From NCBI RefSeq assembly GCF_014644415.1, contig NZ_BMKQ01000001.1, positions 2,927,217-2,991,216 of the forward strand: a stretch of 64,000 bases of DNA, written 5' to 3'. A program made the translations under genes and the position numbers. Below the pieces are notes generated by a model. It made no database searches. It was not told the origin of the DNA and saw only the letters and a list, made by a program, of their open reading frames with translations. This DNA is from Marmoricola endophyticus. GTDB lineage: Bacteria > Actinomycetota > Actinomycetes > Propionibacteriales > Nocardioidaceae. This document shows positions 827 to 12,257 of the stretch, piece after piece (the first letter of the stretch is position 1; every line of letters begins with the position of its first letter).

Positions 827-1540
827 TCACCGGATGCGCGCGGCGTCGATGCGTGTGTAGGTGTCCCGCAGCGCGGAGAGGTGGGAGCGCATCGCCCGCT
901 CAGCGGCGCGGGCGTCCTGGGCGCGGACCGCGTCGAGGATCCCCTGGTGCTCGTCGGCGACCTTGCGCCAGAACGCGGGCTCGGCCTGGTCGCGCAGGAA
1001 CCGGTCCCGGAGGACCGACAGGACGGGGCTGGTCACCATGTCCATCAGCGGGTTCCCACCGGCCTCGACCAGCAGCCCGTGGAAGGTGATGTTCGCCCAC
1101 CAGCGCTCGACGTTCTGCTCACTGGAGTCGCTGACGACGACGATGGAGGCCTGGAGGCGCTCGAGGTCGGCGTCGGTCCGGTTGCGGGCGGCGCTGGCCG
1201 CCGCCGGCACCTCGAGGTGGGTACGCACCTCGAGCAGCTGGGCGACACTGAGCCGGCTCCGGCTGAGCACCGTCAGCGAGGTCTCGAGGTAGTCGGCGAC
1301 GTCGGCCGGTGTCGGCTCGGCGACGAACGTGCCGCCGGCGACGCCGCGGACCGGGCGCAGCAGCTTCTGCGTGGTGAGCACGCGGATCGCCTCGCGCAGG
1401 GTGTTCCGGCTGACCCCCATCCGGGCGGTGAGCTCGTCTTCCACGGGGAGCCGGTCGCCCGGGCGCAGGTCACCGCGCACGATCATGTCGCGGAGTGCCT
1501 GCGCCACGCGCTCGTACTCCAGCGGGGTGCCGCGGGCCAT
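827..1540 (-). CDS. GntR-family (FCD/FadR type) transcriptional regulator
   Basis: A 237-residue regulator with an N-terminal winged helix (about residues 8-75, containing RMGVSRNTLREAIRVL) and an all-helical C-terminal FCD ligand domain (about 95-225). FCD regulators usually bind organic acids and repress nearby catabolic genes. It is the last gene of the minus-strand run that starts with the MaoC gene at 5381 and follows the CitE-like lyase by 51 bp. This makes it the likely local controller. Two TTGGAT-type elements in the divergent intergenic region (5448-5467 and 5625-5636) are candidate binding sites. Start chosen at the ATG, which gives a normal family length. Confidence 0.9.
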   Translation of the reverse strand: MARGTPLEYERVAQALRDMIVRGDLRPGDRLPVEDELTARMGVSRNTLREAIRVLTTQKLLRPVRGVAGGTFVAEPTPADVADYLETSLTVLSRSRLSVAQLLEVRTHLEVPAAASAARNRTDADLERLQASIVVVSDSSEQNVERWWANITFHGLLVEAGGNPLMDMVTSPVLSVLRDRFLRDQAEPAFWRKVADEHQGILDAVRAQDARAAERAMRSHLSALRDTYTRIDAARIR

Positions 1541-1591
1541 GGAGGGGACGCTACCGGTCCGTGGCCCGCGGATCGCGCACCGACGTACGCC

Positions 1592-2431
1592 TCAGACCAG
1601 GCCGAGCACGCGGCGGGCGGTACGGATCGTCGCCTCGTCGACCAGCCGGCCGGCGTCGTCGAGGACCGTCCCGTGCCCGCGCTCCTCGGCCTCGGCGAGC
1701 AGCCGCAGGGTGTCCCGGGCCGCGGCGACCTCCTCGGGGGAGGGGGTGAAGGCGTCGTGGACGGTCTCGAGCTGGGCGGGGTGGATGCAGGCCCGGCCGA
1801 AGAACCCCTGCCGGCGGGCGCGCACGGTGCGCTCGCGGAAGAGCGCGGTGTCCTCGACCTCGATCGAGACCGGGGCGACCGGTGGCGCGATCCCGGCCGC
1901 CGAGCTGGCGACGACGACCTGCGCCCGCGCCCAGTCCAGCTCGCGCTCGTCCTCGCCGGGAACGACCCCGAGCTCGGCGCAGAGGTCGTACTCGCCCAGC
2001 TGCATCCGGGTGACCCCCGGCAGCCCGGCGATGCGCGGGGCCTCGAGAACGGCGCCGGCGGTCTCCAGGAGGGGACTGACCCGCCAGTCGTCGCCCTGGT
2101 CGCGGATCAGCGCCGTGAGCTCCTCGACCCCGGTCGCGGTGGCCTTCGCGAGCACCACCCCGGTCAGCGGGGCGCCACACATCGCCGCGACATCCTCGGC
2201 CGCGGTGGGGCCGGGGTTGACCCGGACCCACAGCTCGGGGCCGGAGCCCGCGTCCACGCCCGCCGCCCAGGCGGCGACCTGCGCGCGCGCGGCGTCCTTC
2301 TCGGCGAGGGGGACGGCGTCCTCGAGGTCGACGATCACCGCCTCGGCGGCACCCGACCACGCCTTCGGGATCAGGTCGGGGCGGTTGCCCGGCGCGTAGA
2401 GGTACGACCGCGGCAGCCTGCCGCCGCTCAC
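1592..2431 (-). CDS. CitE-like beta-hydroxyacyl-CoA lyase (HpcH/HpaI family)
   Basis: A 279-residue CitE/citramalyl-CoA lyase type TIM barrel. Visible marks are RSYLYAPGNRPDL at the N terminus, the metal-site motif VDLEDAVP, MQLGEYDLCAELG in the middle, and GFFGRACIHPAQ near the C terminus. Relatives split (S)-citramalyl-CoA, malyl-CoA or HMG-like thioesters to acetyl-CoA plus a keto acid. It starts with a GTG that overlaps the stop of the acyl-CoA dehydrogenase (GTGA), so the two are translationally coupled. With a MaoC hydratase and a family III CoA-transferase upstream, the best guess is citramalyl-CoA lyase of itaconate breakdown; the substrate is inferred. Confidence 0.88.
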   Translation of the reverse strand: MSGGRLPRSYLYAPGNRPDLIPKAWSGAAEAVIVDLEDAVPLAEKDAARAQVAAWAAGVDAGSGPELWVRVNPGPTAAEDVAAMCGAPLTGVVLAKATATGVEELTALIRDQGDDWRVSPLLETAGAVLEAPRIAGLPGVTRMQLGEYDLCAELGVVPGEDERELDWARAQVVVASSAAGIAPPVAPVSIEVEDTALFRERTVRARRQGFFGRACIHPAQLETVHDAFTPSPEEVAAARDTLRLLAEAEERGHGTVLDDAGRLVDEATIRTARRVLGLV

Positions 2432-3588
2432 CCGACGGCCGTACGGCCGGCGAGCAGCGACTTGGCGACCACGGTGCGGAGCACGTCGTTCGTCCCCTCG
2501 CCGATGCTCATCAGCGGGGCGTCGCGGTAGAGCCGCTCCACCTCGTACTCCTTGGAGTAGCCGTAGCCGCCGTGCACCTTCATCGAGTCGATGGCGGCGT
2601 CCAGGGCCATCTCCGAGGCGAAGATCTTCGCCATCCCGGTCTCGCCGTCGGCACGACCCTCGCGGACCGCGCTCGCCGCCCAGTACGTCATCAGCCGCGC
2701 GGCCTGGAGGTTCGTCGCCACCGAGGCGAGCTTGAGCTGGATGGCCTGGAACGCCGAGATGGGCTGGTCGAAGGCCTCCCGCTCCTGGGAGTAGCGCAGC
2801 GCCTCCTCGTACGCTCGCTGGCCGACCCCGACCGAGCGGGCGGCGATGTTGACGCGCCCCCACTCCAGCGCGGAGAGGGTCTGCTGCATGCCCGTCCCCT
2901 CGACGCCGCCGAGGAGGTTCTCCTGGGGGACCCGGACGTTGTCCAGGAGCAGCTCGCAGGACTCCGGACCCTTGTAGCCCAGCTTGTCGATGTCCTTGAG
3001 GACCTCGAACCCCGGGGTGCCGGCCTCCACGAGGATCACGCTCATCCCCTTGTGGGCGGGTGTGGCGGAGGGGTCGGTCTTGACGATGACCGGCAGCACG
3101 GAGGCGTAGCGGGCGTTGGTGATCCACATCTTCGAGCCGTTGAGGACGTAGTGGTCGCCCTCGAGCCTCGCCGTGGTGAGGATGCCCTGCATGTCGGTCC
3201 CGGCACCGGGCTCGGTGAGCCCCAGGCCGGTGCGCATCTCACCGGTCGCCAGACCGGGCAGGTAGGTCTGCCTCTGCTCCTCGGTGCCGTGCACGGCGAT
3301 CATCCGGCACGACAGCGAGTGGCTGCCGAGGATGCCGGCCACCCCCATCCAGCCGCGGGCCAGCTCCTCGAAGACCAGGGCGAACGAGACGGGGTCGAGG
3401 TCGAGCCCGCCGTACTCCTCGGGGACGGTGATCCCGAACAGGCCGAGGTCCTTCAAGCCCTCGACGATCTCGGTCGGGTAGCGGCCCTCGTGCTCGTAGT
3501 CGCGCGCGACGGGGATGATCTCCTTCTCGACGAAGGATCGGAGCACGCGGCGGAAGTCCTGCTGCTCCTCGGTCAGGGTGAAGTCCAT
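2428..3588 (-). CDS. Acyl-CoA dehydrogenase
   Basis: A full-length 386-residue FAD enzyme that introduces an alpha,beta double bond into an acyl-CoA and passes electrons to ETF. Evidence: GLTEPGAGTDMQ and MWITNA in the central flavin-binding part, and a C-terminal IGEGTNDV with the expected catalytic Glu near residue 364. The ATG is preceded by GGAGG at a 5 bp spacing. It lies 30 bp after the CoA-transferase and overlaps the lyase gene. In the cluster it could oxidise a saturated C5 thioester (for example methylsuccinyl-CoA) into the pathway, but chain specificity cannot be read from the sequence. Confidence 0.93.
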   Translation of the reverse strand: MDFTLTEEQQDFRRVLRSFVEKEIIPVARDYEHEGRYPTEIVEGLKDLGLFGITVPEEYGGLDLDPVSFALVFEELARGWMGVAGILGSHSLSCRMIAVHGTEEQRQTYLPGLATGEMRTGLGLTEPGAGTDMQGILTTARLEGDHYVLNGSKMWITNARYASVLPVIVKTDPSATPAHKGMSVILVEAGTPGFEVLKDIDKLGYKGPESCELLLDNVRVPQENLLGGVEGTGMQQTLSALEWGRVNIAARSVGVGQRAYEEALRYSQEREAFDQPISAFQAIQLKLASVATNLQAARLMTYWAASAVREGRADGETGMAKIFASEMALDAAIDSMKVHGGYGYSKEYEVERLYRDAPLMSIGEGTNDVLRTVVAKSLLAGRTAVG

Positions 3589-3618
3589 GGGGGCCTCCTG
3601 GGGTCGGTGGGGACGGGG

Positions 3619-4848
3619 TCAGCTGGTCGGCAGGTCGGAGGCGGGCAGTGGGACGCCACCGAAGGCGCCCTCCTTGTCGAGCACCTCGATCTCGGCGTCG
3701 TCGTACCCGCCGAGCTCCTGCAGGACGGCGCGCAGGTCCTCGTTGCGCTGGGGCGCCCGGCGGTACGTCGGCCGCTCCGCCCCGACGCGTACGGGGGAGG
3801 CGACCTGGCGCAGCCCGCCCCACCGTGGGTGCTCGGTCTCGACGACCAGGTCCCGGGCGAGCGTGTGCTCGTCGGTCAGGGCCTCGCCCACGCTGTGGAT
3901 CGGGGCGCAGGGGACGCGTGCGGCCTTGAGCAGGTCGATCCAGTGCTCCACGGTCCCGCCGCGGAGCACGTCCTCGATCAGGGGGATCAGCTCGTCGCGG
4001 TGCGCGTACCGCGCGCCGAAGTCGACGAAGCGGGGATCGGTGGCCCACTCGGGGTGGTCGAGCCGCTCGGCGAGGCGGACCCAGAACTTCTCCTTGGCGC
4101 AGCCGATCACCAGCCAGCCGTCGGAGGCCTCGAACGCCTGGAACGGGACCAGCGACGGGTGGGCGGAGCTCGCCGTGCGCGCCGGGGTGAAGCCGCGGTT
4201 CAGGTGCCAGGCGGCCGGGTAGTTCAGCATCGTCACCGCGACGTCGTAGAGGCTGACGTCGCAGTCCATCCCCACCCCGTCGCGTCGTGCCGCGTGGATG
4301 CCGGCGAGCATCGAGAGCGCGCCGACGTACCCGCCCGAGTAGTCCACGAGGGACAGCCCGCTCTTGGTCGGTGGCCCGGCCGGGTCGCCGGTGAGGTCCA
4401 TCCAGCCGGCCAGGCCCTGGAGGATGTAGTCGTAGCCCGGCTCGGTCGAGCGCGGGCCGGTCATCCCGAAGCCGCTGAGCGAGCAGCACACGATCGCCGG
4501 GTTCAGGTGCTTGAGCTGGTCGTAGGTGATGCCGATCTTCTCCGGCACGTCACCGCGCAGGTTCGAGTAGACCGCGTCGGCGCCGACCACCAGCCGCTCG
4601 AAGACGGCGCGGCCCTCGGGGTTGGCGAGGTCGAGGGAGATGCTGCGCTTGTTGCGGTTGAAGGCCTCGAAGAACAGCGAGTCCTCCTCCTCGGCGTACG
4701 GCGGCACGTAGCGCCCGACGTCGCCTCCGGAGCTGGGCTCCTCGATCTTGATGACGTCCGCGCCGAGGTCGGCCAGGTGCAGGGAGCCCCAGGGGCCGGC
4801 TCCGTACTGCTCCAGCGCGAGGACCCGGACGTCCTCCAGCGGCCTCAT
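3619..4848 (-). CDS. CoA-transferase family III (CaiB/BaiF)
   Basis: 409 residues, the normal size of a family III CoA-transferase. The N terminus LEDVRVLALEQYGAGPW and the LADLGADVIKIE motif are typical, and the catalytic aspartate falls at residue 169 (SLVDYSGG), the position known from formyl-CoA transferase. These enzymes move CoA between carboxylates, usually from succinyl-CoA to an incoming acid. The ATG overlaps the MaoC stop (ATGA), so both are made together. The frame stays open a further 600 bp upstream but that part only shadows the MaoC gene. Context suggests activation of itaconate or a similar dicarboxylate; no sequence feature fixes the acid. Confidence 0.92.
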   Translation of the reverse strand: MRPLEDVRVLALEQYGAGPWGSLHLADLGADVIKIEEPSSGGDVGRYVPPYAEEEDSLFFEAFNRNKRSISLDLANPEGRAVFERLVVGADAVYSNLRGDVPEKIGITYDQLKHLNPAIVCCSLSGFGMTGPRSTEPGYDYILQGLAGWMDLTGDPAGPPTKSGLSLVDYSGGYVGALSMLAGIHAARRDGVGMDCDVSLYDVAVTMLNYPAAWHLNRGFTPARTASSAHPSLVPFQAFEASDGWLVIGCAKEKFWVRLAERLDHPEWATDPRFVDFGARYAHRDELIPLIEDVLRGGTVEHWIDLLKAARVPCAPIHSVGEALTDEHTLARDLVVETEHPRWGGLRQVASPVRVGAERPTYRRAPQRNEDLRAVLQELGGYDDAEIEVLDKEGAFGGVPLPASDLPTS

Positions 4849-5381
4849 CGGCGCGCCCCGCGACCCTCGGCGGTCATCGGCTCGGCGGCCTGGGGAAACA
4901 CCTCGCCCAGCTGCTCGGAGCCGCGCTTGTGCACCAGGAAGGTGCGCAGGAACGTGCAGACCTCCACGGCGTCCTGGTTCAGCGTCCGGGTCCGCACGGT
5001 GACGATCCCGGCGTGCGGGCGGCTCTTGCTCTCGCGCTTCTCGATCACCAGCGACTCGCTCCACAGGGTGTCGCCGGCGAAGACGGGGTGCGTCATCTCG
5101 ATGGCGTCCCAGCCGAGGTTGGCGAAGGCGTTCTGCGTGATGTCGGTGACGCTCTGCCCGACGGCGATCGCCACGGTCAGGGTGGACACGACGATGGGGC
5201 GGGCGAACTCCGACCTCTCGGCGTACGTCGTGTTGAAGTGCATCTGGTTGGTGTTCATCGTCAGCAGCGTGAACCAGGTGTTGTCCGCCTCGGTGACCGT
5301 CCGGCCCAGCGGGTGCTGGTACACCGCGCCGGGCTCGAAGTCCTCGAAGAACCGTCCCTGCCATCCCGACTCGACCGTCAT
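4845..5381 (-). CDS. MaoC-like hydratase
   Basis: A 178-residue single hot-dog MaoC protein. It starts FFEDFEPGAVY and carries GRTVTEADN and NQMHFN, the segment that supplies the hydratase Asp/His pair, followed by VFAGDTLW. Such proteins hydrate enoyl-CoA thioesters; close gene context (family III CoA-transferase, CitE lyase) is that of itaconyl-CoA or mesaconyl-CoA hydratase. Start at 5381 is preferred over an ATG/GTG nine codons upstream because GGAG lies 7 bp before it. It is the first gene of the minus-strand run and faces the divergent MFS gene across 313 bp. Confidence 0.87.
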   Translation of the reverse strand: MTVESGWQGRFFEDFEPGAVYQHPLGRTVTEADNTWFTLLTMNTNQMHFNTTYAERSEFARPIVVSTLTVAIAVGQSVTDITQNAFANLGWDAIEMTHPVFAGDTLWSESLVIEKRESKSRPHAGIVTVRTRTLNQDAVEVCTFLRTFLVHKRGSEQLGEVFPQAAEPMTAEGRGARR

Positions 5382-5447
5382 GGGGTGCTCCTTGTCGTCC
5401 GGACGCACGGCCCGGTGGGCGGCACGTCGTGATCAGCGTCACCACCA

Positions 5448-5467
5448 TTGGAGCACAAAAGATCCAA
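5448..5467. promoter_or_regulatory. Inverted repeat, candidate GntR operator upstream of MaoC operon
   Basis: TTGGA (5448-5452) and TCCAA (5463-5467) form an inverted repeat with a 10 bp spacer, 67 bp upstream of the MaoC start codon. The ATCCAA half recurs at 5631-5636. The 5382-5694 gap is the only large one in the cluster and separates divergent genes, so it must hold both promoters. Assignment to the GntR protein at 827-1540 is inference. Confidence 0.4.
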
Positions 5468-5624
5468 CATTAGAAGCGTGGCCGTCGGGTGCCGACGCTC
5501 GCCTTCTCTCGGCAACGGGGTCGTCACGAATCTCTAAAAATCCCTTGAAGTACCTGGATAGCCCGGCTGGGCTGGGCCTGCCGCACTCGCGCGGCGGCAG
5601 GGATTGCTCGACGCCTATTGCGTC

Positions 5625-5636
5625 TTGAATATCCAA
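5625..5636. promoter_or_regulatory. Near-palindrome TTGAATATCCAA, candidate GntR operator upstream of MFS gene
   Basis: TTGAATATCCAA is a 12 bp palindrome apart from one base pair and lies 58 bp before the MFS start codon. It shares TTGGAT with the element at 5462-5467 on the other side of the same gap. The rest of 5382-5694 shows only a GC-rich stretch around 5565-5600 and no gene. Confidence 0.42.
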
Positions 5637-5694
5637 CCTTTACTGTCCACCGTGACCGGCGTCACTCGCCGGTGACCAGTGCCCAGGAGGATCC

Positions 5695-7092
5695 ATGACG
5701 CTCCCGCCCGACGCGTTGGCAGCGAGCACGACGCCCAGCCGGCCCAGTCCGCTCGCCCGCCTGGACCGGATCCCGATCGCCACCGCCAGCCACCGCCGGT
5801 GGATGTGGGTGCTCGGCTTCCTGTTCGCCTTCGACCTGATCGACCTGAACACGTTCGCGTACGCCGCTCCGGCCGTGCGCGAGCAGTGGGACCTCTCGAT
5901 CGACCAGATCGGGCACATCAACTCGATCGGCTTCGCCGGGATGTTCCTCGGCGCGATCATCGGCGGCCGCGTCTCGGACCGGATCGGTCGCCGGACGGTC
6001 CTGCTCGGGTCCGTCGTCTTCTACTCGGTGTTCTCGCTGGCGACCGCCGCGGCCCAGGACGCGACCCAGATGATGGTGCTGCGCTTCCTCACCGGCCTGG
6101 GGCTGCAGGCGATGACCGGGGTGCTGCTGGTCTACCTCAGCGAGATGTTCCCCAAGGCGCTGCGCGGCCGCTACCAGGCGCTGACGCTCGGCATCGGGTT
6201 CGTCGGGGTGCCCGTCGTCGCACTGACCGCACGCGTCGTCGTCCCCCTCGGGGGCGACCACTGGCGCTGGGTCTTCGTGATCGGCGGCCTGGGGATCCTC
6301 GGCCTCGGCTTCGCTCGGCGGATGCTGCCGGAGTCGATCCGCTGGCAGGTCGTCAACGGGCACCCGGAGACTGCCGCGAGGACGCTGGACCACCTCGAGC
6401 AGGAGGCCCGCTCTGCTGGGGCCACCCTGGCGGAGCCGGTGGAGCCCGTCCTGGCCGCGCCGGCGCCGGCGATCGAGCTGTTCCGGCCGCGCAACCTGCG
6501 CCGGCTGATCTCGACGATGCTGGTCTGCGTCTGCCTGATCCTGTGCTTCTACGGCTTCAACTCCTGGGTCCCCACCCTCCTGGTCGACAACGGGTACTCC
6601 ACCTCGCAGACCCTCACGTACACCGCGATCCTCTCGCTGGCCGCCGCCCCCGGTGCGTTCCTCGCCGTGCCGCTGATCGACCGCTTCGACCGGCGCTGGC
6701 TGCTGGCCGGCATCGAGGTCCTCGCCGCGGTCCTGCTGCTGATCTTCGGGTTCGTGTCGGACCCGGCTGCTCTCGTGGTCAGCGGCTTCCTCGCCACGAT
6801 GATGCTGCAGTGCGGCGTCGCCGTGATCTACACCTACCTCCCCGAGACCTTCCCGACGCCGTTGCGCGGGCTGGGCTCCGGGATCGCCAACGGCACCGGC
6901 CGGCTCTCCGGCGTCATCGGGCTCACCGTGGTCGGCTGGGTCTACCAGGGCCTGGGCTTCACCGCCGTCTTCACCTACCTCGCCGCCACCGCGCTGCTGA
7001 TGGGTCTCGTGCTCGTCGTGCTGGGCGAGCGGACCACCAACGTCTCCCTCGACGACGTCGGGGCCGGCGGCACCGCCGACCCCGCCCGATGA
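5695..7092 (+). CDS. MFS organic-acid transporter
   Basis: A 465-residue major facilitator with two six-helix halves joined by a cytoplasmic loop (about residues 225-265). The loop 2-3 signature GRVSDRIGRRTVLL is clear, and MFPKALRGR before helix 5 and TFPTPLRGLGSGIANG before helix 11 place it near the aromatic-acid and metabolite:H+ symporters. It is divergent from the MaoC operon and directly followed by the PrpD-type gene, whose potential first ATG overlaps its stop. It most likely imports the acid broken down by the cluster. A signal peptide is not seen, as expected. Confidence 0.88.
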   Translation: MTLPPDALAASTTPSRPSPLARLDRIPIATASHRRWMWVLGFLFAFDLIDLNTFAYAAPAVREQWDLSIDQIGHINSIGFAGMFLGAIIGGRVSDRIGRRTVLLGSVVFYSVFSLATAAAQDATQMMVLRFLTGLGLQAMTGVLLVYLSEMFPKALRGRYQALTLGIGFVGVPVVALTARVVVPLGGDHWRWVFVIGGLGILGLGFARRMLPESIRWQVVNGHPETAARTLDHLEQEARSAGATLAEPVEPVLAAPAPAIELFRPRNLRRLISTMLVCVCLILCFYGFNSWVPTLLVDNGYSTSQTLTYTAILSLAAAPGAFLAVPLIDRFDRRWLLAGIEVLAAVLLLIFGFVSDPAALVVSGFLATMMLQCGVAVIYTYLPETFPTPLRGLGSGIANGTGRLSGVIGLTVVGWVYQGLGFTAVFTYLAATALLMGLVLVVLGERTTNVSLDDVGAGGTADPAR

Positions 7093-7103
7093 AAGGACCG
7101 CAG

Positions 7104-8498
7104 ATGACCCTCTCCACCCGGATCGCCGACTTCTCCTCGACCCTGACCGTCGCGCAGCTGCCGGACGACGTACGAGCCGCTGCCGGCATGCACGCCCTGG
7201 ACACGGTGGGCTGCGGCGTGGCCGCGGTCGGCCTCGGCGAGGCCGACTTCGTGCAGCACGCCGCCGAGGAGAGCCACGCGCCGGGGTCGTCCTCGGCGAT
7301 CGGCTCGAGCCTGCCGATGAGCGCCGAGGACGCGGCGCTGGTCGGCGGCGTCCGCTGCCACGCGCTGGACTACGACGACACCCACGCCGCCGCGGTCACG
7401 CACGTCAGCACCGCGGTCGTCCCCGCCGCCCTCGCCGCGGCGGAGGAGATCGGCGCCAGCGGCGCCGACGTGCTGGCAGCGCTCGTCGCCGGCAGCGAGG
7501 TGTCGATCCGGGTCGGCACCGCCGGAGCCGGGGAGTTCCACGACCGGGGCTTCCACCCGACCGGCGTCGTCGGGATCTTCGGTGCGACCGTCGCCGCGGC
7601 GCGCGTCCACGGGCTGAGCGCGCGGATGACCGCGCACGCGCTCGGGCTGGCCGGCTCGATGGCCGGCGGCGTCCTGGAGTTCCTCTCCGACGGCTCCCAG
7701 ACCAAGCCGCTGCACGCGGGGTGGGCCGCCCGGGCCGCTCTGTCGGCGGTCCGAATGGCCCGGCACGGCGCGACCGGGCCGGCGACCGTGCTCGAGGGGT
7801 CGCGCGGCTTCTACGCGACGTACCTGCACGGGGTCGACACGGACGCGACGGGGGAGATCGCGGACCTCGGCGAGCGGTGGGAGACGCCGCGCATCGCGTA
7901 CAAGCCGTACGCCGCCTGCCACTTCACCCACGCACCGGTCGACGCGCTCGCCGCGCTGGTGCGTCGCGAGGGGCTGGGCGCCGAGGACGTCGAGAGCATC
8001 GTGGTGTACGCCGAGCCCACCGGGGTGCCGGTGGTGCTCGAGCCCGCGGCCGACAAGCTGACACCGCGAACCGCGTACGACGCCAAGTTCAGCCTGCCGT
8101 ACTGCCTCGCCCACCAGCTGGTGCACGGGGGCCTGCCGGTGGCCAGCTTCACCGCACCGGCGATCGCCGATCCGGCCGTCCTCGCGATCACGCCGCGCGT
8201 CTCCTACGAGGAGCGCCGCTACAGCGACCGACCCGGCTCCTTCGGGGGAGGCGTACGCGTGTCGCTCACCGACGGTCGGGTCCTCGAGCACGAGCTGCAG
8301 CACCAGCGCGGTGGCACCGAGTTCCCGATGACCGACGACGAGGTCCGTGCGAAGTACCGCGACAACGCGTCGCTGGGGCTGGGCGAGGAGCAGGTGGACA
8401 CGCTCGACCGCCTGCTGACCGGTCTCGCCGAGGCGCCCGACCTGTCGTCGTACGCCGTCGTGCGTGAGGCCCGGCCGCGGGTCGAGGCGCGCGTCTGA
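7104..8498 (+). CDS. MmgE/PrpD family protein
   Basis: 464 residues of the MmgE/PrpD fold, which includes 2-methylcitrate dehydratase and cis-aconitate decarboxylase. Recognisable stretches are ALDTVGCGVAA, the conserved HALDYDDTH near residue 92, GFHPTGVVG, KPLHAGWAARA and YKPYAACHFTH. The ATG at 7104 is chosen because AAAGGA lies just upstream; another ATG at 7089 overlaps the MFS stop. It may isomerise, dehydrate or decarboxylate a C5/C6 acid. A PrpD-type gene also sits inside the Pseudomonas itaconate operon (from memory), which supports the pathway assignment but not a reaction. Confidence 0.88.
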   Translation: MTLSTRIADFSSTLTVAQLPDDVRAAAGMHALDTVGCGVAAVGLGEADFVQHAAEESHAPGSSSAIGSSLPMSAEDAALVGGVRCHALDYDDTHAAAVTHVSTAVVPAALAAAEEIGASGADVLAALVAGSEVSIRVGTAGAGEFHDRGFHPTGVVGIFGATVAAARVHGLSARMTAHALGLAGSMAGGVLEFLSDGSQTKPLHAGWAARAALSAVRMARHGATGPATVLEGSRGFYATYLHGVDTDATGEIADLGERWETPRIAYKPYAACHFTHAPVDALAALVRREGLGAEDVESIVVYAEPTGVPVVLEPAADKLTPRTAYDAKFSLPYCLAHQLVHGGLPVASFTAPAIADPAVLAITPRVSYEERRYSDRPGSFGGGVRVSLTDGRVLEHELQHQRGGTEFPMTDDEVRAKYRDNASLGLGEEQVDTLDRLLTGLAEAPDLSSYAVVREARPRVEARV

Positions 8499-8513: not shown

Positions 8514-9224
8514 CTACGCGGCGCCGTCGACCTTCTGCAGCACCAGCAGCCCGTCGCCGACCGGTAGAAGCAGGGGGACGACGTCGTCGCGCTCGGTCAC
8601 CGTGCGGAGGACCTCCCGCACCGCGGTGGTCTCGGGGTCGCGCTGGGCCGGGTCGGCGACGCGGTCGTGCCACAGCGCGTTGTCGAAGCAGGCGATCCCG
8701 CCGACGCGCAGCAGGACCATGGCCGCGTCGAGGTAGGCGGGGTACTCCTCCTTGTCCCCGTCGCAGAACACCAGGTCGTAGTGCCCGTCGGTGAGCCGGG
8801 GAAGCACGTCGAGCGCCGCGCCCGGGATCATCCGCGCACGGGCGCCCGTGAACCCGGCCTCGGTCAGGCCCTCCTTGGCCAGCCGCTGGTGCTCGGCCTC
8901 GATGTCGACCGAGGTCAGCACCCCCTCGGAGGACATGCCGCGCAGCAGCCAGATCCCGGAGACGCCGCTGCCGGTCCCGATCTCCACCACCGCACGGGCG
9001 TCGAGGACGGACGCCAGGAAGCGCAGGGCCGCGCCACCGCCGGCACCGATCGGGGCCACGCCGATCTGCTCGGCCCGCTCCCGGGCCCGGACGAGGACGT
9101 CGTCCTCGGCGACGTAGCGCTCGGCGTACTCCCAGCTCGCCGGAGCCAGTGGTGCGGTGATGACGGCCTCCTGGGCACCTCGTCGGCGGGGCCGGGCGGG
9201 GTGGTCGCTGCTCGGCCGGGTCAC
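8514..9224 (-). CDS. SAM-dependent O-methyltransferase (Rv1220c type)
   Basis: A class I SAM methyltransferase of the caffeoyl-CoA O-methyltransferase superfamily. The SAM motif VVEIGTGSGVSGIWLL is present, then TSVDIEAEHQRLA and YDLVFCDGDKEEYPAYLD. About 236 residues from the GTG at 9224. The strongest ribosome-site-like sequence (AGGAGG, 9167-9172) precedes an ATC rather than a normal start codon, so the true N terminus is uncertain; the Streptomyces proteins I remember share a Q-E-x-V-I-T stretch there, favouring the longer form. It is divergent from sigE, the same arrangement as in mycobacteria. The substrate is unknown. Confidence 0.85.
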   Translation of the reverse strand: MTRPSSDHPARPRRRGAQEAVITAPLAPASWEYAERYVAEDDVLVRARERAEQIGVAPIGAGGGAALRFLASVLDARAVVEIGTGSGVSGIWLLRGMSSEGVLTSVDIEAEHQRLAKEGLTEAGFTGARARMIPGAALDVLPRLTDGHYDLVFCDGDKEEYPAYLDAAMVLLRVGGIACFDNALWHDRVADPAQRDPETTAVREVLRTVTERDDVVPLLLPVGDGLLVLQKVDGAA

Positions 9225-9273
9225 CGCGACCCTACTGGCGCGGGCACCGCTGACGGTGCAGCGCGCCGCCGCG

Positions 9274-9299: not shown

Positions 9300-9440
9300 G
9301 ATCACAGCAACACGGGGGCCTACCCTCAGGCTCCTCTCATCCCGGATCCCTAGCGTGAGCGAGGACGAGCAGCACCGATGACGAGCAGCACGACCCGACG
9401 AGTGGCCTCCCGGCGGCACAGGGTCGACGGAAGGCACCCG

Positions 9441-10058
9441 ATGGAGCAGCAGACCCTCGACCGCGACAGCCACGACGGCGCCCACGGGCAGGTCGAGGAC
9501 TGGGTGCCGCCGACCTGGGAGCAGGTCGTCACCGACCACTCCGCACGGGTCTACCGGCTGGCGTACCGCCTGACCGGCAACGCCCACGACGCCGAGGACC
9601 TCACCCAGGAGGTCTTCGTACGGGTGTTTCGCTCGCTGGACAAGTACACCCCCGGCACCTTCGAGGGCTGGCTGCACCGGATCACCACGAACCTGTTCCT
9701 CGACCAGGCCCGCCGCAAGAGCCGGATCCGCTTCGACGCACTCGCCGACGACGCCGACCAGCGGCTGCCCAGCACGCTCCCGGCGCCCGACCGCCTGCTC
9801 ATGGACCAGAGCTTCGACGCCGACATCGAGGCCGCCCTGGCCGACCTGCCGCCGGACTTCCGCGCCGCGGTCGTGCTCTGCGACGTCGAGGGGCTCTCGT
9901 ACGACGAGATCGCCGACGTGCTGCAGCTCAAGCTCGGCACCGTGCGCTCGCGGATCCACCGCGGTCGCTCGCTGCTGCGCAAGGCCTTGGCGCACCGAGC
10001 CCCGGCGCCCGGCCGCGTCCGCTACTCCGGACCGACGCTGGCCTCCCGGCCGACGTGA
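9441..10058 (+). CDS. sigE: ECF RNA polymerase sigma factor SigE
   Basis: A 205-residue sigma-70 family ECF factor. Region 2 reads [20 protein letters not shown] with the DAED core contact motif; region 4 holds [20 protein letters not shown], the helix-turn-helix for the -35 element. The ATG at 9441 has GGAAGG 7 bp upstream and is preferred to one at 9378. The neighbours (zinc anti-sigma, HtrA, TatB, Mrp and the divergent methyltransferase) match the mycobacterial sigE locus, which answers cell-envelope stress. An ECF-type promoter at 9274-9299 suggests self-activation. Confidence 0.93.
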
Positions 10059-10594
10059 TGCTCGGCCTCCGCTCGCTCCCGGGGCCGTCCTCGGGCCCCC
10101 ACCTCGGTGACCGCGCCAGCGCGCTGGTCGACGGCCAGCTGTCCGCGGCCGAGGCGGCACGGGCGTGGGACCACGTCGAGGCGTGCGAGGACTGCCACCA
10201 GGAGGTCCAGCGGCACTCCTGGCTGAAGTCGAGGCTGTCGGCGTTCTCCACGCCGGCCGCGGACCCGGCACCGACGGCAGGCCTGATGGGGGCGCTGTAC
10301 GACGTCGACGAGCAGACGCGCACGGCCTGGCACGAGACCGACCTGATCGCGGCCCGCACCCGTCGGCGCACCCTGACGGTCGTCGGGGCCGGCTCGCTGT
10401 CGGCGGCCGTGATCGGCGTGCTCGCGCTCACCGGTGCGCCCGCGGGGCTGAACGAGCCGGTCACCCGTCCCGCCCCCGCGCGGCTGGGCGCCACGCTCGC
10501 CGGCACCGGTGCCGCGCCCCGTGGGCTGCCCGAGCCCCGGCGCGCGCCATCCTTCGGACCGGTGCCCGTCGGGTTGCGGGGTCCCGCACACTAG
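10058..10594 (+). CDS. rseA: Zinc-binding anti-sigma factor (RseA-like)
   Basis: 178 residues. The N-terminal domain (about 14-60) carries the ZAS signature His39-x3-Cys43-x2-Cys46, which binds zinc and holds the sigma factor. A hydrophobic stretch at about 108-130 could be a single membrane segment, with a Pro/Ala-rich tail after it. It begins one base inside the sigE stop (TGATG; a GTG at 10055 is an alternative) and ends 4 bp before htrA, so the three genes form one operon. By family, release of SigE would follow oxidation or proteolysis of this protein. Confidence 0.88.
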   Translation: MLGLRSLPGPSSGPHLGDRASALVDGQLSAAEAARAWDHVEACEDCHQEVQRHSWLKSRLSAFSTPAADPAPTAGLMGALYDVDEQTRTAWHETDLIAARTRRRTLTVVGAGSLSAAVIGVLALTGAPAGLNEPVTRPAPARLGATLAGTGAAPRGLPEPRRAPSFGPVPVGLRGPAH

Positions 10595-10598
10595 AGGC

Positions 10599-11909
10599 GT
10601 GAGCGAGGACGGCGGGCCCGACGGTCAGCGTGGCGTCACGTCCGGCGGTGACCCTTGGCGCGCCCCCGACCAGCGGCCGCCGGCGCCGTACCCCGACTGG
10701 TCGCGGCCCGCGCCGCCGCCGGTTCCCCCGCAGGCGCCGGTGCCCGGGCCGCCGCCGTACTCCGGCTTCGGCGTCCACCGTGCCGCCCCGACGCCCGAGC
10801 GTGCCGGCGGCCGGCTCCCCGGCTGGGCCTGGCCCACGATTGCGGCGACCGCGCTCGTGCTCGGCCTCCTGGGCGGACTGATCGGCGGTGCGCTGGTCGG
10901 CGGCGACGACGAGGGCACCGTCCCGGGAGGTGTGCTGCGGGTCGAGCGCCGCACTGCGGCGCCGCTCGAGGCCGACAACGGCAGCGTCCCCGCGGTGGCC
11001 CAGGCGGTGCTGCCGAGCACCGTCCAGATCATCGCCGAGTACGACGGCGCCGCCGAGGGAGCGACCGGCTCCGGCTTCGTGCTGGACCGCGAGGGCCACG
11101 TCATCACCAACAACCACGTCGTCGCCGAAGCGGCCTCCGACGGCGGGCCGATCGCCGTCGTGGACTCCAAGGGCCGGCGGACGAGCGCCGAGGTGATCGG
11201 CCGGAGCGCGGTGTACGACGTCGCGGTGCTGAAGGTCGACGCCGCAAAGAGCCTCACGCCCGCCGCGCTCGGCTCCTCGACACAGATGCGCGTCGGCGAG
11301 ACGGTCGTCGCCTTCGGTGCGCCGCTCGGGCTGACCAGCTCGGTCACCTCCGGCATCGTCAGCGCGCTCAACCGGCCGGTCTCGACCGGCAGCACCAGCG
11401 ACGACCAGTCGTACATCAACGCGGTGCAGACCGACGCGGCGATCAACCCCGGCAACTCCGGCGGCCCGCTGGTCGACCTGCAGGGCAAGGTGGTCGGGAT
11501 GAACTCCGCGATCGCCTCGCTCGGGCAGGGCACCGGCGACCAGGGCGGCAACATCGGGGTCGGTTTCGCGATCCCGGTCGAGCAGGTGGTCACCACCGTG
11601 GACCAGATCCTGAAGAGCGGCTCGGCCCGCTACCCCGTCATCGGTGCCGGGGTCGTCGCCACCCGCGGCAGCGACGAGGGCGCGGAGCTCTCGACGATCA
11701 GCGACGGCGACCCCGCCGACGACGCGGGGCTCCAGTCCGGCGACGTCGTCACCCGCGTCGACGGCAAGCCGGTGACCAGCCCGATCGATCTCGTGGTGGC
11801 GATCCGCAGCCACGTCTCGGGGGACAAGCTGCGCCTGAGCGTGGAGCGGGGCGGGTCCAGCCGGGACGTCAGCGTCACCCTCACCTCCCGCAGGGAGAAG
11901 GTGTCCTGA
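10599..11909 (+). CDS. htrA: HtrA/DegP-like membrane serine protease with PDZ domain
   Basis: 436 residues from a GTG at 10599. Order: a proline-rich cytosolic N terminus (about 1-75), one membrane helix (about 78-102), a trypsin-like domain with His in TNNHVV, Asp in YDVAVL and Ser in GNSGGP, then a C-terminal PDZ domain starting near GAGVVATRG. The catalytic part faces outside and degrades or refolds damaged envelope proteins. It is the third gene of the sigE-rseA operon and convergent with tatB, 15 bp apart. The frame is open further upstream but that would run through the rseA end. Confidence 0.92.
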   Translation: MSEDGGPDGQRGVTSGGDPWRAPDQRPPAPYPDWSRPAPPPVPPQAPVPGPPPYSGFGVHRAAPTPERAGGRLPGWAWPTIAATALVLGLLGGLIGGALVGGDDEGTVPGGVLRVERRTAAPLEADNGSVPAVAQAVLPSTVQIIAEYDGAAEGATGSGFVLDREGHVITNNHVVAEAASDGGPIAVVDSKGRRTSAEVIGRSAVYDVAVLKVDAAKSLTPAALGSSTQMRVGETVVAFGAPLGLTSSVTSGIVSALNRPVSTGSTSDDQSYINAVQTDAAINPGNSGGPLVDLQGKVVGMNSAIASLGQGTGDQGGNIGVGFAIPVEQVVTTVDQILKSGSARYPVIGAGVVATRGSDEGAELSTISDGDPADDAGLQSGDVVTRVDGKPVTSPIDLVVAIRSHVSGDKLRLSVERGGSSRDVSVTLTSRREKVS

Positions 11910-11924
11910 CGCAGCGGCTCTCGC

Positions 11925-12257
11925 TCAGGTCGCCTCGGTGTCGTACGGCGGCCGCTCGCCGGGCTTGAGCCCGCGCGCGGCGACGGCCTTGCGCTGCTCC
12001 TCGTCGTCGATCTCCTGCATCGCGTCGAGGACGTGCTGGCGCACGACCTGTCGGGGGTCGAGGTCGCGCAGACGGAGGTCCTTGTACTCCGGGCCCAGCT
12101 CGCTGCGCAGGTCGCTCTGCGCGTTGCGGGCGAACGTACGCAGGGTGTGCAGCATCCGGGCCGCCTGACGGGCGAACTCCGGGAGCCGGTCGGGACCGAA
12201 GACGATGACGGCGACGATCAGGATGACCCCGATCTCGGGGATGCCGACGTCGAACAC
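11925..12257 (-). CDS. tatB: Sec-independent translocase component TatB
   Basis: 110 residues with the TatA/B plan: a short N-terminal membrane helix (IGVILIVAVIVFGPDRLPEF) that contains the FGP hinge, an amphipathic helix (RQAARMLHTLRTFARNAQ), and a charged tail. Position next to htrA and mrp and a length near 110 favour TatB over TatA. TatB forms the receptor complex with TatC for folded twin-arginine substrates. Here it is on the opposite strand to htrA, as the last gene of the run that includes mrp (32 bp upstream). Confidence 0.85.
   Translation of the reverse strand: MFDVGIPEIGVILIVAVIVFGPDRLPEFARQAARMLHTLRTFARNAQSDLRSELGPEYKDLRLRDLDPRQVVRQHVLDAMQEIDDEEQRKAVAARGLKPGERPPYDTEAT

Follow-up and report, generated by a model that had tools for sequence, protein, structure and literature searches.

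Does a gene cluster that combines the enzyme families of a known itaconate operon degrade itaconate? The question is raised by a seven-gene block at the start of a 64,000-nucleotide stretch of the Marmoricola endophyticus genome (contig NZ_BMKQ01000001.1, positions 2,927,217 to 2,991,216; hereafter the window), which a first-pass annotation had read as a probable regulon for catabolism of itaconate or another C5-dicarboxylate. The block is an accessory unit with two operator-like sites, and it belongs to a widespread actinobacterial group that stands apart from the Pseudomonas enzymes. Its genes probably form a complete regulon through which a 2-substituted (branched) succinate is catabolised. 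The specific assignment to itaconate was probably too narrow. The features, in window coordinates, are the following.

827-1540, minus strand: GntR/FCD regulator (PF00392 and PF07729 above cut-off)
1592-2431, minus strand: CitE-like (HpcH/HpaI) acyl-CoA lyase (PF03328; GTG start)
2428-3588, minus strand: acyl-CoA dehydrogenase (all three Pfam acyl-CoA dehydrogenase domains)
3619-4848, minus strand: family III CoA-transferase (PF02515; Asp169)
4845-5381, minus strand: single-domain MaoC hydratase, RipB/Ich-like (PF19315 and PF01575)
5457-5473: predicted GntR operator on the side of the MaoC operon (position weight matrix from other loci, rank 2)
5626-5642: predicted GntR operator on the side of the MFS-PrpD operon (same matrix, rank 1)
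5695-7092, plus strand: MFS transporter, probable uptake (PF07690)
7104-8498, plus strand: MmgE/PrpD family protein, predicted epimerase or isomerase of a dicarboxylate (PF03972 and PF19305)

All seven reading frames are open and complete and lie within the first 8.5 kb of the window, and every one of the seven proteins scores above the Pfam gathering threshold in its expected family. Families, gene order and strands, including the divergent placement of the MFS and MmgE/PrpD genes, agree to the base with the first-pass annotation, as does the intact Asp169 of the CoA-transferase, which is invariant in 12 of 12 aligned sequences, the window's included. The description of the enzyme genes as an overlapping operon holds at two junctions only, CitE/dehydrogenase and CoA-transferase/MaoC, with 4 bp shared at each, whereas dehydrogenase and CoA-transferase genes are spaced by 30 bp and GntR and CitE genes by 51 bp. 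An intergenic region of 313 bp separates the two divergent operons.

Predicted regulatory sites in this region connect the two operons. In related loci, a palindrome with the consensus TAAACATCTGATGTTTA occurs upstream of the MaoC gene. Among 119 loci with a CoA-transferase at least 60% identical to that of the window, 106 had a MaoC match, and these yielded 97 distinct upstream regions; the palindrome was found at five or fewer mismatches in 56 of the 97, compared with 1.2 of 97 in base shuffles and 1.4 of 106 in random stretches of the same loci. A position weight matrix trained on those 56 sites, none of them from this genome, was used to rank all plus-strand 17-mers of the window. The site at 5626-5642 ranked first (10.2 bits) and that at 5457-5473 second (5.1 bits). 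Each lies upstream of a divergent start codon, the first at 52 bp and the second at 75 bp. Both have diverged from the consensus; scores of 20-36 bits are frequent among the sites of other loci. The pattern AANATCCAACNTT, derived from the two window sites and searched with one mismatch allowed, has two matches in 3.66 Mb, both of them these sites, while the same pattern read backwards has one match in 3.66 Mb. That the top-ranked predicted operators precede both divergent operons argues that the MFS and PrpD genes belong with the enzymes, and judging from these sites they are very likely part of the same regulon. The regulator, 42-46% identical to the GntR proteins adjoining related clusters of Amycolatopsis and Rhodococcus, is probably its repressor. 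No sigma-70 promoters or terminators were found at 5300-5800. The gene set and the predicted operators support the proposal of one GntR-linked catabolic regulon of five enzyme families.

The seven genes are one accessory block. On one side of it is pepA, whose end is at position 819, and on the other, at 8514-9230 of the minus strand, an O-methyltransferase-like gene; both were named from reading of the sequence. The methyltransferase gene is present in 24 of 24 searched genomes of the genus, the host's own included, and 16 kb around it were compared in 10 of the 23 congeners. In five of these ten regions, pepA lies about 20-370 bp from the methyltransferase gene and the block is absent between them; in the other five, pepA was not found within the 16-kb stretch. 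The block genes had no match in the ten regions save one dehydrogenase-like match of 44% identity (L200). A search of all 23 congeners found no close counterpart of the dehydrogenase (best 51%; a paralogue in the host's own genome reaches 48%). Across the host's family, 31 of 294 genomes have a dehydrogenase match at E 1e-130 or better, and in 29 of these, leaving aside the host's own genome and one match at 53%, identity is 67-81%. The grouping is beyond chance: in congeners, pepA and the methyltransferase gene stand side by side with no block, and a very similar set of genes is found again in dozens of loci of actinobacteria.

The natural standard of comparison is the ich-mcd-msi-ict-ccl cluster of Pseudomonas aeruginosa, whose role in itaconate and methylsuccinate use has been shown biochemically (PMC12290011). 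According to the accessible text of that paper, 96.2% of Msi-type isomerases are in Pseudomonadota, and the words Actinomycetota and Actinobacteria are both absent from its main text. Our reference copy comes from an isolate plasmid, its lyase being 99.6% identical to the solved chain 8khl, and comprises hydratase, acyl-CoA dehydrogenase, VOC protein, MmgE/PrpD protein, CoA-transferase, lyase and TRAP transporter; the entire itaconate/methylsuccinate cluster, TRAP transporter included, is carried on an 847-kb plasmid record from a blood isolate (L062:3904-12895). All five enzyme families do occur together in both systems, as the first-pass annotation had stated, and the Pseudomonas/Cupriavidus clusters likewise have a linked transporter and regulator. 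It was also right that these last two differ, being MFS and GntR in the window and TRAP and LysR in Pseudomonas.

Alignment and phylogeny, the check that the annotation had set as decisive against itaconate, largely separate the enzymes themselves. The window CoA-transferase is 32% identical to P. aeruginosa Ict (PA0882 type), the dehydrogenase 32% to Mcd, and the PrpD protein 33% to Msi. The two CoA-transferases fall in separate clades with SH-aLRT support of 99 each, and the Mcd clade is set off by a branch of length 4.72 (SH-aLRT 99); the trees were made by a quick method with SH-aLRT support only, and those of CoA-transferase and dehydrogenase carry a long-branch warning. Both window proteins group instead among actinobacterial, Caballeronia and Azospirillum proteins, and the dehydrogenase is 81% identical to those of two other loci in the sample (L072 and L114). 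A Thermus cluster, whose CoA-transferase is 56% and whose dehydrogenase is 63% identical to the respective P. aeruginosa protein, shows that distance between organisms is not the sole cause of the divergence seen in the window. By these comparisons, none of the three window proteins is orthologous to its counterpart among Ict, Mcd and Msi.

The Thermus cluster, on Thermus thermophilus plasmid pAA2-2c (L036:2697-8456), combines Ict/Mcd-like CoA-transferase and dehydrogenase genes with those for a RipB-like hydratase, a lyase and a GntR regulator. Two further genes are of fumarase type, annotated as fumarate hydratase and FumA C-terminus and presumably encoding a class I fumarase. Its gene content makes it likely to be a true itaconate/mesaconate/methylsuccinate cluster outside the Pseudomonadota with another type of hydratase. 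A Pseudosulfitobacter cluster is mixed in a different way, with a CoA-transferase of the Ict clade (on a long branch) beside dehydrogenase, PrpD and MaoC proteins nearer to the window's kind. This mixture suggests that window-type and Pseudomonas-type sets may do similar chemistry.

The window hydratase is, by its domain matches, of the RipB-like single-domain kind and not of the Pseudomonas kind: it is 24% identical to P. aeruginosa Ich, which matches PF13452 only, and its own best matches are PF19315 and PF01575; it also matches the Pfam mesaconyl-CoA hydratase model. With NCBIfam model RipB_Ich (NF038241) it scores 194.8 bits against a curated cut-off of 340. This cut-off is strict, since the Thermus hydratase, encoded beside Ict and Mcd homologues and 56% identical to the window's, scores only 219.4 bits. 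MaoC was considered as a marker of the substrate and dropped, as close relatives occur in unrelated clusters. For the lyase, the best NCBIfam model is RipC_Ccl (NF038242), at 126.7 bits with a cut-off of 375. Failure here says little, because P. aeruginosa Ccl, a characterised lyase, itself scores just 157.7 bits; the cut-off was therefore dropped as a test for Ccl. The likeness to Ich and Ccl that the first-pass annotation had supposed thus stands in general form, as likeness to RipB_Ich and RipC_Ccl, and does not extend to passing either curated cut-off.

Identity of the lyase to P. aeruginosa Ccl is 37%. In its tree the window protein joins near relatives (support 98), with P. aeruginosa Ccl and Yersinia RipC elsewhere on a backbone without resolution, and the loop that follows its RxN motif is two residues shorter than in those two enzymes. 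Across 78 lyases of the actinobacterial group described below, the spacing is 7 residues in 65, 6 in two, 8 in three and 12 in one, with the motif unmatched in seven. Among 19 other lyases, 15, that of P. aeruginosa among them, have a spacing of 9, and two show no motif match. The remaining two have 7; one is from Embleya and shares 48% identity with the window lyase, and the other belongs to the group but scores slightly below the limit set for it. Like Yersinia ripABC, the window has a hydratase and a lyase whose best NCBIfam models are RipB_Ich and RipC_Ccl; unlike it, the window has a family III CoA-transferase and, in addition, the dehydrogenase and the PrpD protein. Yersinia RipA belongs to a different CoA-transferase family.

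The MmgE/PrpD protein has as its best solved relative the iminodisuccinate epimerase 2HP3 (E 2.7e-44). Three residues, His102, Tyr148 and Lys266, have been proposed to act in the Msi mechanism (PMC12290011, accessible text), and the histidine and lysine are kept in the window protein as His100 and Lys267. The published profile for Msi uses a score cut-off of 550. In its tree the window protein pairs with the PrpD protein of L114 (support 100; 59% identity), its only partner in a subgroup other than that of the related loci; deeper forks of this tree are not supported.

A scan of named genomes for the CoA-transferase placed, by record title, 77 of the best 80 loci, at 66-75% identity, in actinobacteria. 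Matches were found to MaoC in at least 67 of the 80, to PrpD in at least 64, to the dehydrogenase and to CitE in at least 61 each and to GntR in at least 45; further genes were F420-type LLM (at least 46), RidA and thiolase (at least 45 each), DUF35 (at least 43), and HyuA and HyuB (at least 11 each). These counts are lower bounds owing to contig ends, and paralogues account for part of the matches. Of 396 genomes drawn evenly from the phylum, 12, the host's own included, have a CoA-transferase match at E 1e-100. The loci of Rhodococcus, Nocardia, Nocardioides and others (L038, L065, L072, L112-L161) share with the window the CoA-transferase (66-75%) and, where present, the dehydrogenase (67-81%), and many also have MaoC, CitE, GntR and the operator in common with it. 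Many differ in their extra genes, namely F420-type LLM, RidA, two more MaoC, thiolase and DUF35, or HyuAB and an amidase. The window itself shows the traits of the group: CoA-transferase clade, dehydrogenase clade, neighbouring GntR gene, operator palindrome (in diverged form) and short lyase loop. The set is common in actinobacteria, and no published function for it was found in the open literature. Full-text searches there, with subscription papers outside their scope, returned nothing on MmgE together with MaoC and a CoA ester lyase or on four of the five enzyme names, nothing on itaconate degradation with Nocardioides, and nothing on sulfosuccinate degradation with a CoA-transferase; in the accessible portions of PMC9875883 and PMC12599236, no cluster of the five genes from actinobacteria is mentioned.

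An extended form of the locus, seen in about 45 of the best 80 (for example L073:266-11280), has the order GntR-MaoC-F420 LLM-CoA-transferase-PrpD-RidA-MaoC-MaoC-thiolase-DUF35-dehydrogenase-CitE and occurs in Nocardioides, Actinomadura, Micromonospora and others; its DUF35 and thiolase proteins are weakly like benzoylsuccinyl-CoA thiolase. Two Rhodococcus plasmid loci (L065:1-9813 and L038:1620-13138) carry hydantoinase A and B genes and, in L038, an amidase gene, divergent from a GntR-MaoC-CoA-transferase-PrpD-dehydrogenase-CitE operon; the HyuA protein of L065 has caprolactamase alpha as its best model, and operator sites flank the GntR gene on both sides.

We infer the substrate class, the reactions, the binding of GntR and the direction of regulation as follows. 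The MFS protein would take up the acid, and the MmgE/PrpD protein would interconvert stereoisomers of the free acid, to which the family III CoA-transferase would transfer CoA from succinyl-CoA. The dehydrogenase would oxidise the resulting 2-substituted succinyl-CoA to a 2-enoyl-CoA, MaoC would hydrate this to a 3-carboxy-3-hydroxyacyl-CoA, and the CitE-like lyase would cleave the product to acetyl-CoA and a 2-oxoacid, which would be pyruvate if the substituent is methyl. The FadR-type GntR protein would bind one operator before each divergent operon, presumably as a repressor released by a pathway intermediate. The presence of the same five families gives good grounds for a general chemistry in which a branched dicarboxylate is activated with CoA, dehydrogenated, hydrated and cleaved at a C-C bond, and a 2-substituted succinate is the best-supported class of substrate. 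All characterised MmgE/PrpD substrates have a 1,4-dicarboxylate backbone, according to the available text of PMC12290011, and the window protein keeps the histidine and lysine of the proposed mechanism. General evidence for a branched dicarboxylate also comes from the CoA-transferase, whose nearest models are dicarboxylate enzymes for mesaconate and glutarate, and from the identity of MaoC to the Thermus hydratase. Across the related loci (1.5 Mb), the operator matrix finds 148 sites at 12 bits or more, many of them training sites: 71 before MaoC, 27 before GntR, 9 before HyuA and 34 without a listed gene nearby. Other genes near such sites encode a substrate-binding protein, an enoyl-CoA hydratase, acyl-CoA synthetases, a CN-hydrolase-like protein and an AceE-like protein. 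Three Actinomadura loci have the last of these at an operator, which fits a 2-oxoacid product; the single copy that was scanned scores 207 bits, below the cut-off of 860.

Several observations weigh against this reading. None of the enzymes reaches the curated functional cut-off of any NCBIfam family considered here, and the MFS protein has the aromatic acid/H+ symport family as its best model (237.9 bits; cut-off 418.55). The tyrosine of Msi, its second catalytic base, is missing from the corresponding loop of the window PrpD protein, as it is, once the P. aeruginosa and iminodisuccinate-epimerase references are set aside, from all 13 aligned relatives. These include a distant paralogue, L039_3333; the window protein and the other 12 have a histidine in the column of the epimerase tyrosine, one column before that of P. 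aeruginosa. The CoA-transferase scores best with the succinyl-CoA:mesaconate model (257 bits; cut-off 700) and next with the succinate-glutarate model (248 bits; cut-off 750), but these models do not discriminate, because P. aeruginosa Ict also scores well on both (201 and 237 bits, respectively). Nor can specificity in the CitE family be read from sequence, since the mycobacterial CitE-like protein Rv2498c cleaves both (S)-citramalyl-CoA and (R)-3-hydroxy-3-methylglutaryl-CoA (HMG-CoA), as the accessible text of PMC6689899 reports. In the MaoC tree, the Thermus hydratase pairs with a Polaromonas protein of another context and not with the window's, and RipB-like MaoC genes occur also without CitE, CoA-transferase or MmgE neighbours, for example on Polaromonas plasmid 2. 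Finally, 13 of the best 80 loci gave no MaoC match and 16 no PrpD match, partly at contig ends, and L114, which holds the nearest CoA-transferase in the tree, has no CitE match.

Within the class of 2-substituted succinates, the substrate may be itaconate or methylsuccinate, and the gene set is just as compatible with a branched dicarboxylate that is larger or otherwise different. A strict itaconate/methylsuccinate regulon, its enzymes recruited independently of Pseudomonas and Yersinia, would be a further convergent variant; two such variants, with nonhomologous or distantly homologous enzymes, are already known (PMC12290011, accessible text). The shared five families, the closeness of MaoC to the hydratase of the Thermus cluster with its Ict/Mcd-like and fumarase-type genes, and the pairing in Pseudosulfitobacter of an Ict-clade CoA-transferase with window-like dehydrogenase and PrpD proteins all favour it. 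We nevertheless regard it as doubtful, for the CoA-transferase, dehydrogenase and PrpD protein are not orthologous to Ict, Mcd and Msi, and related loci hold many genes that itaconate would not require. Because linkage to amide- and lactam-type hydrolases recurs, the leading specific alternative is a nitrogen-derived 2-substituted succinate of larger size. The acid would be a larger or otherwise substituted succinate freed from an amide, imide, lactam or N-heterocycle by upstream hydrolases that relatives keep in the same regulon. Ten of the HyuA-type genes in the best 80 loci are 83-99% identical to the Rhodococcus one, whose score with the caprolactamase alpha model is 581.6 bits (cut-off 1000), and nine operator sites precede HyuA. 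One locus has the CN-hydrolase-like gene (66.7 bits with a formamidase model; cut-off 406) at an operator and one has an isochorismatase-type gene there, and one operator separates an amidase gene from an LLM gene. The frequency of F420-type LLM and RidA genes points in the same direction, as does the lyase loop, which has 6-8 residues in 70 of the group's 78 sequences versus 9 in 15 of 19 others. The evidence names no compound, however, and no hydrolase of this kind is in the window block. A search of this genome at E 1e-30 found nothing like the LLM gene of L072, an empty answer that proves little. We hold a nitrogen-derived substrate to be a serious possibility, short of even odds. As a still more tentative and joint proposal, the block might be a compact form of an undescribed actinobacterial pathway for 2-substituted succinates from cyclic imides, lactams or N-heterocycles, with an MmgE/PrpD epimerase whose second base has changed and a CitE lyase whose oxoacid pocket has been remodelled, built out of the enzyme families of the Pseudomonas itaconate pathway yet independently of it.

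Two other routes appear improbable. In one, which follows the methylaspartate cycle, mesaconyl-C1-CoA would be hydrated to beta-methylmalyl-CoA, whose cleavage would yield glyoxylate and propionyl-CoA. The best model of the CoA-transferase would fit, as that mesaconate enzyme forms the C1 ester only, and so would the match of MaoC to the Pfam mesaconyl-CoA hydratase model. Yet the haloarchaeal hydratase model gives MaoC 74 bits versus 195 for RipB_Ich, and the haloarchaeal malyl/methylmalyl-CoA lyase model gives CitE 28 bits versus 127 for RipC_Ccl. The window resembles the haloarchaeal mesaconate system in its best CoA-transferase model and a related hydratase domain, and differs in having one hydratase domain instead of two and a lyase that is not close. 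For the haloarchaeal CoA-transferase, methylsuccinate is a good substrate and itaconate a poor one, and a few actinobacteria have highly homologous sequences (PMC5592240, available text, also for the C1 ester). Acyl-CoA mutase and carboxylase genes adjacent to the Pseudosulfitobacter cluster were considered as a hint of propionyl-CoA and the C1 route and set aside, as they occur at one locus only and may serve another pathway. In the other route, the lyase would act on HMG-CoA and the block would degrade 3-methylglutarate, 3-methylglutaconate or 3-hydroxy-3-methylglutarate. The (R)-HMG-CoA lyase activity of Rv2498c and the nearness of the CoA-transferase to the glutarate model speak for such a route, against which stands the 1,4-dicarboxylate backbone used by characterised MmgE/PrpD enzymes.

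The five enzyme families have apparently been assembled more than once for use of branched dicarboxylates, and the actinobacterial version is common and marked by one recognisable operator. To label such clusters as itaconate degradation from their families alone would probably mislead. With an operator and a closed block of seven genes, the substrate becomes testable, and it could reveal a common environmental metabolite.

Elsewhere in the host's genome, a CitE-like lyase gene (39% identity) lies beside a dehydrogenase gene (48%) at G000:C1:2314620-2317359, and a second RipB-like MaoC gene (44%) is found at G000:C1:1255972-1256469. Past the methyltransferase gene, at 9378-11968 of the window, three open reading frames were read by eye, with no family search made, as a sigma factor, an anti-sigma factor and a protease-like protein; they have matches in the same order in all ten congener regions fetched.

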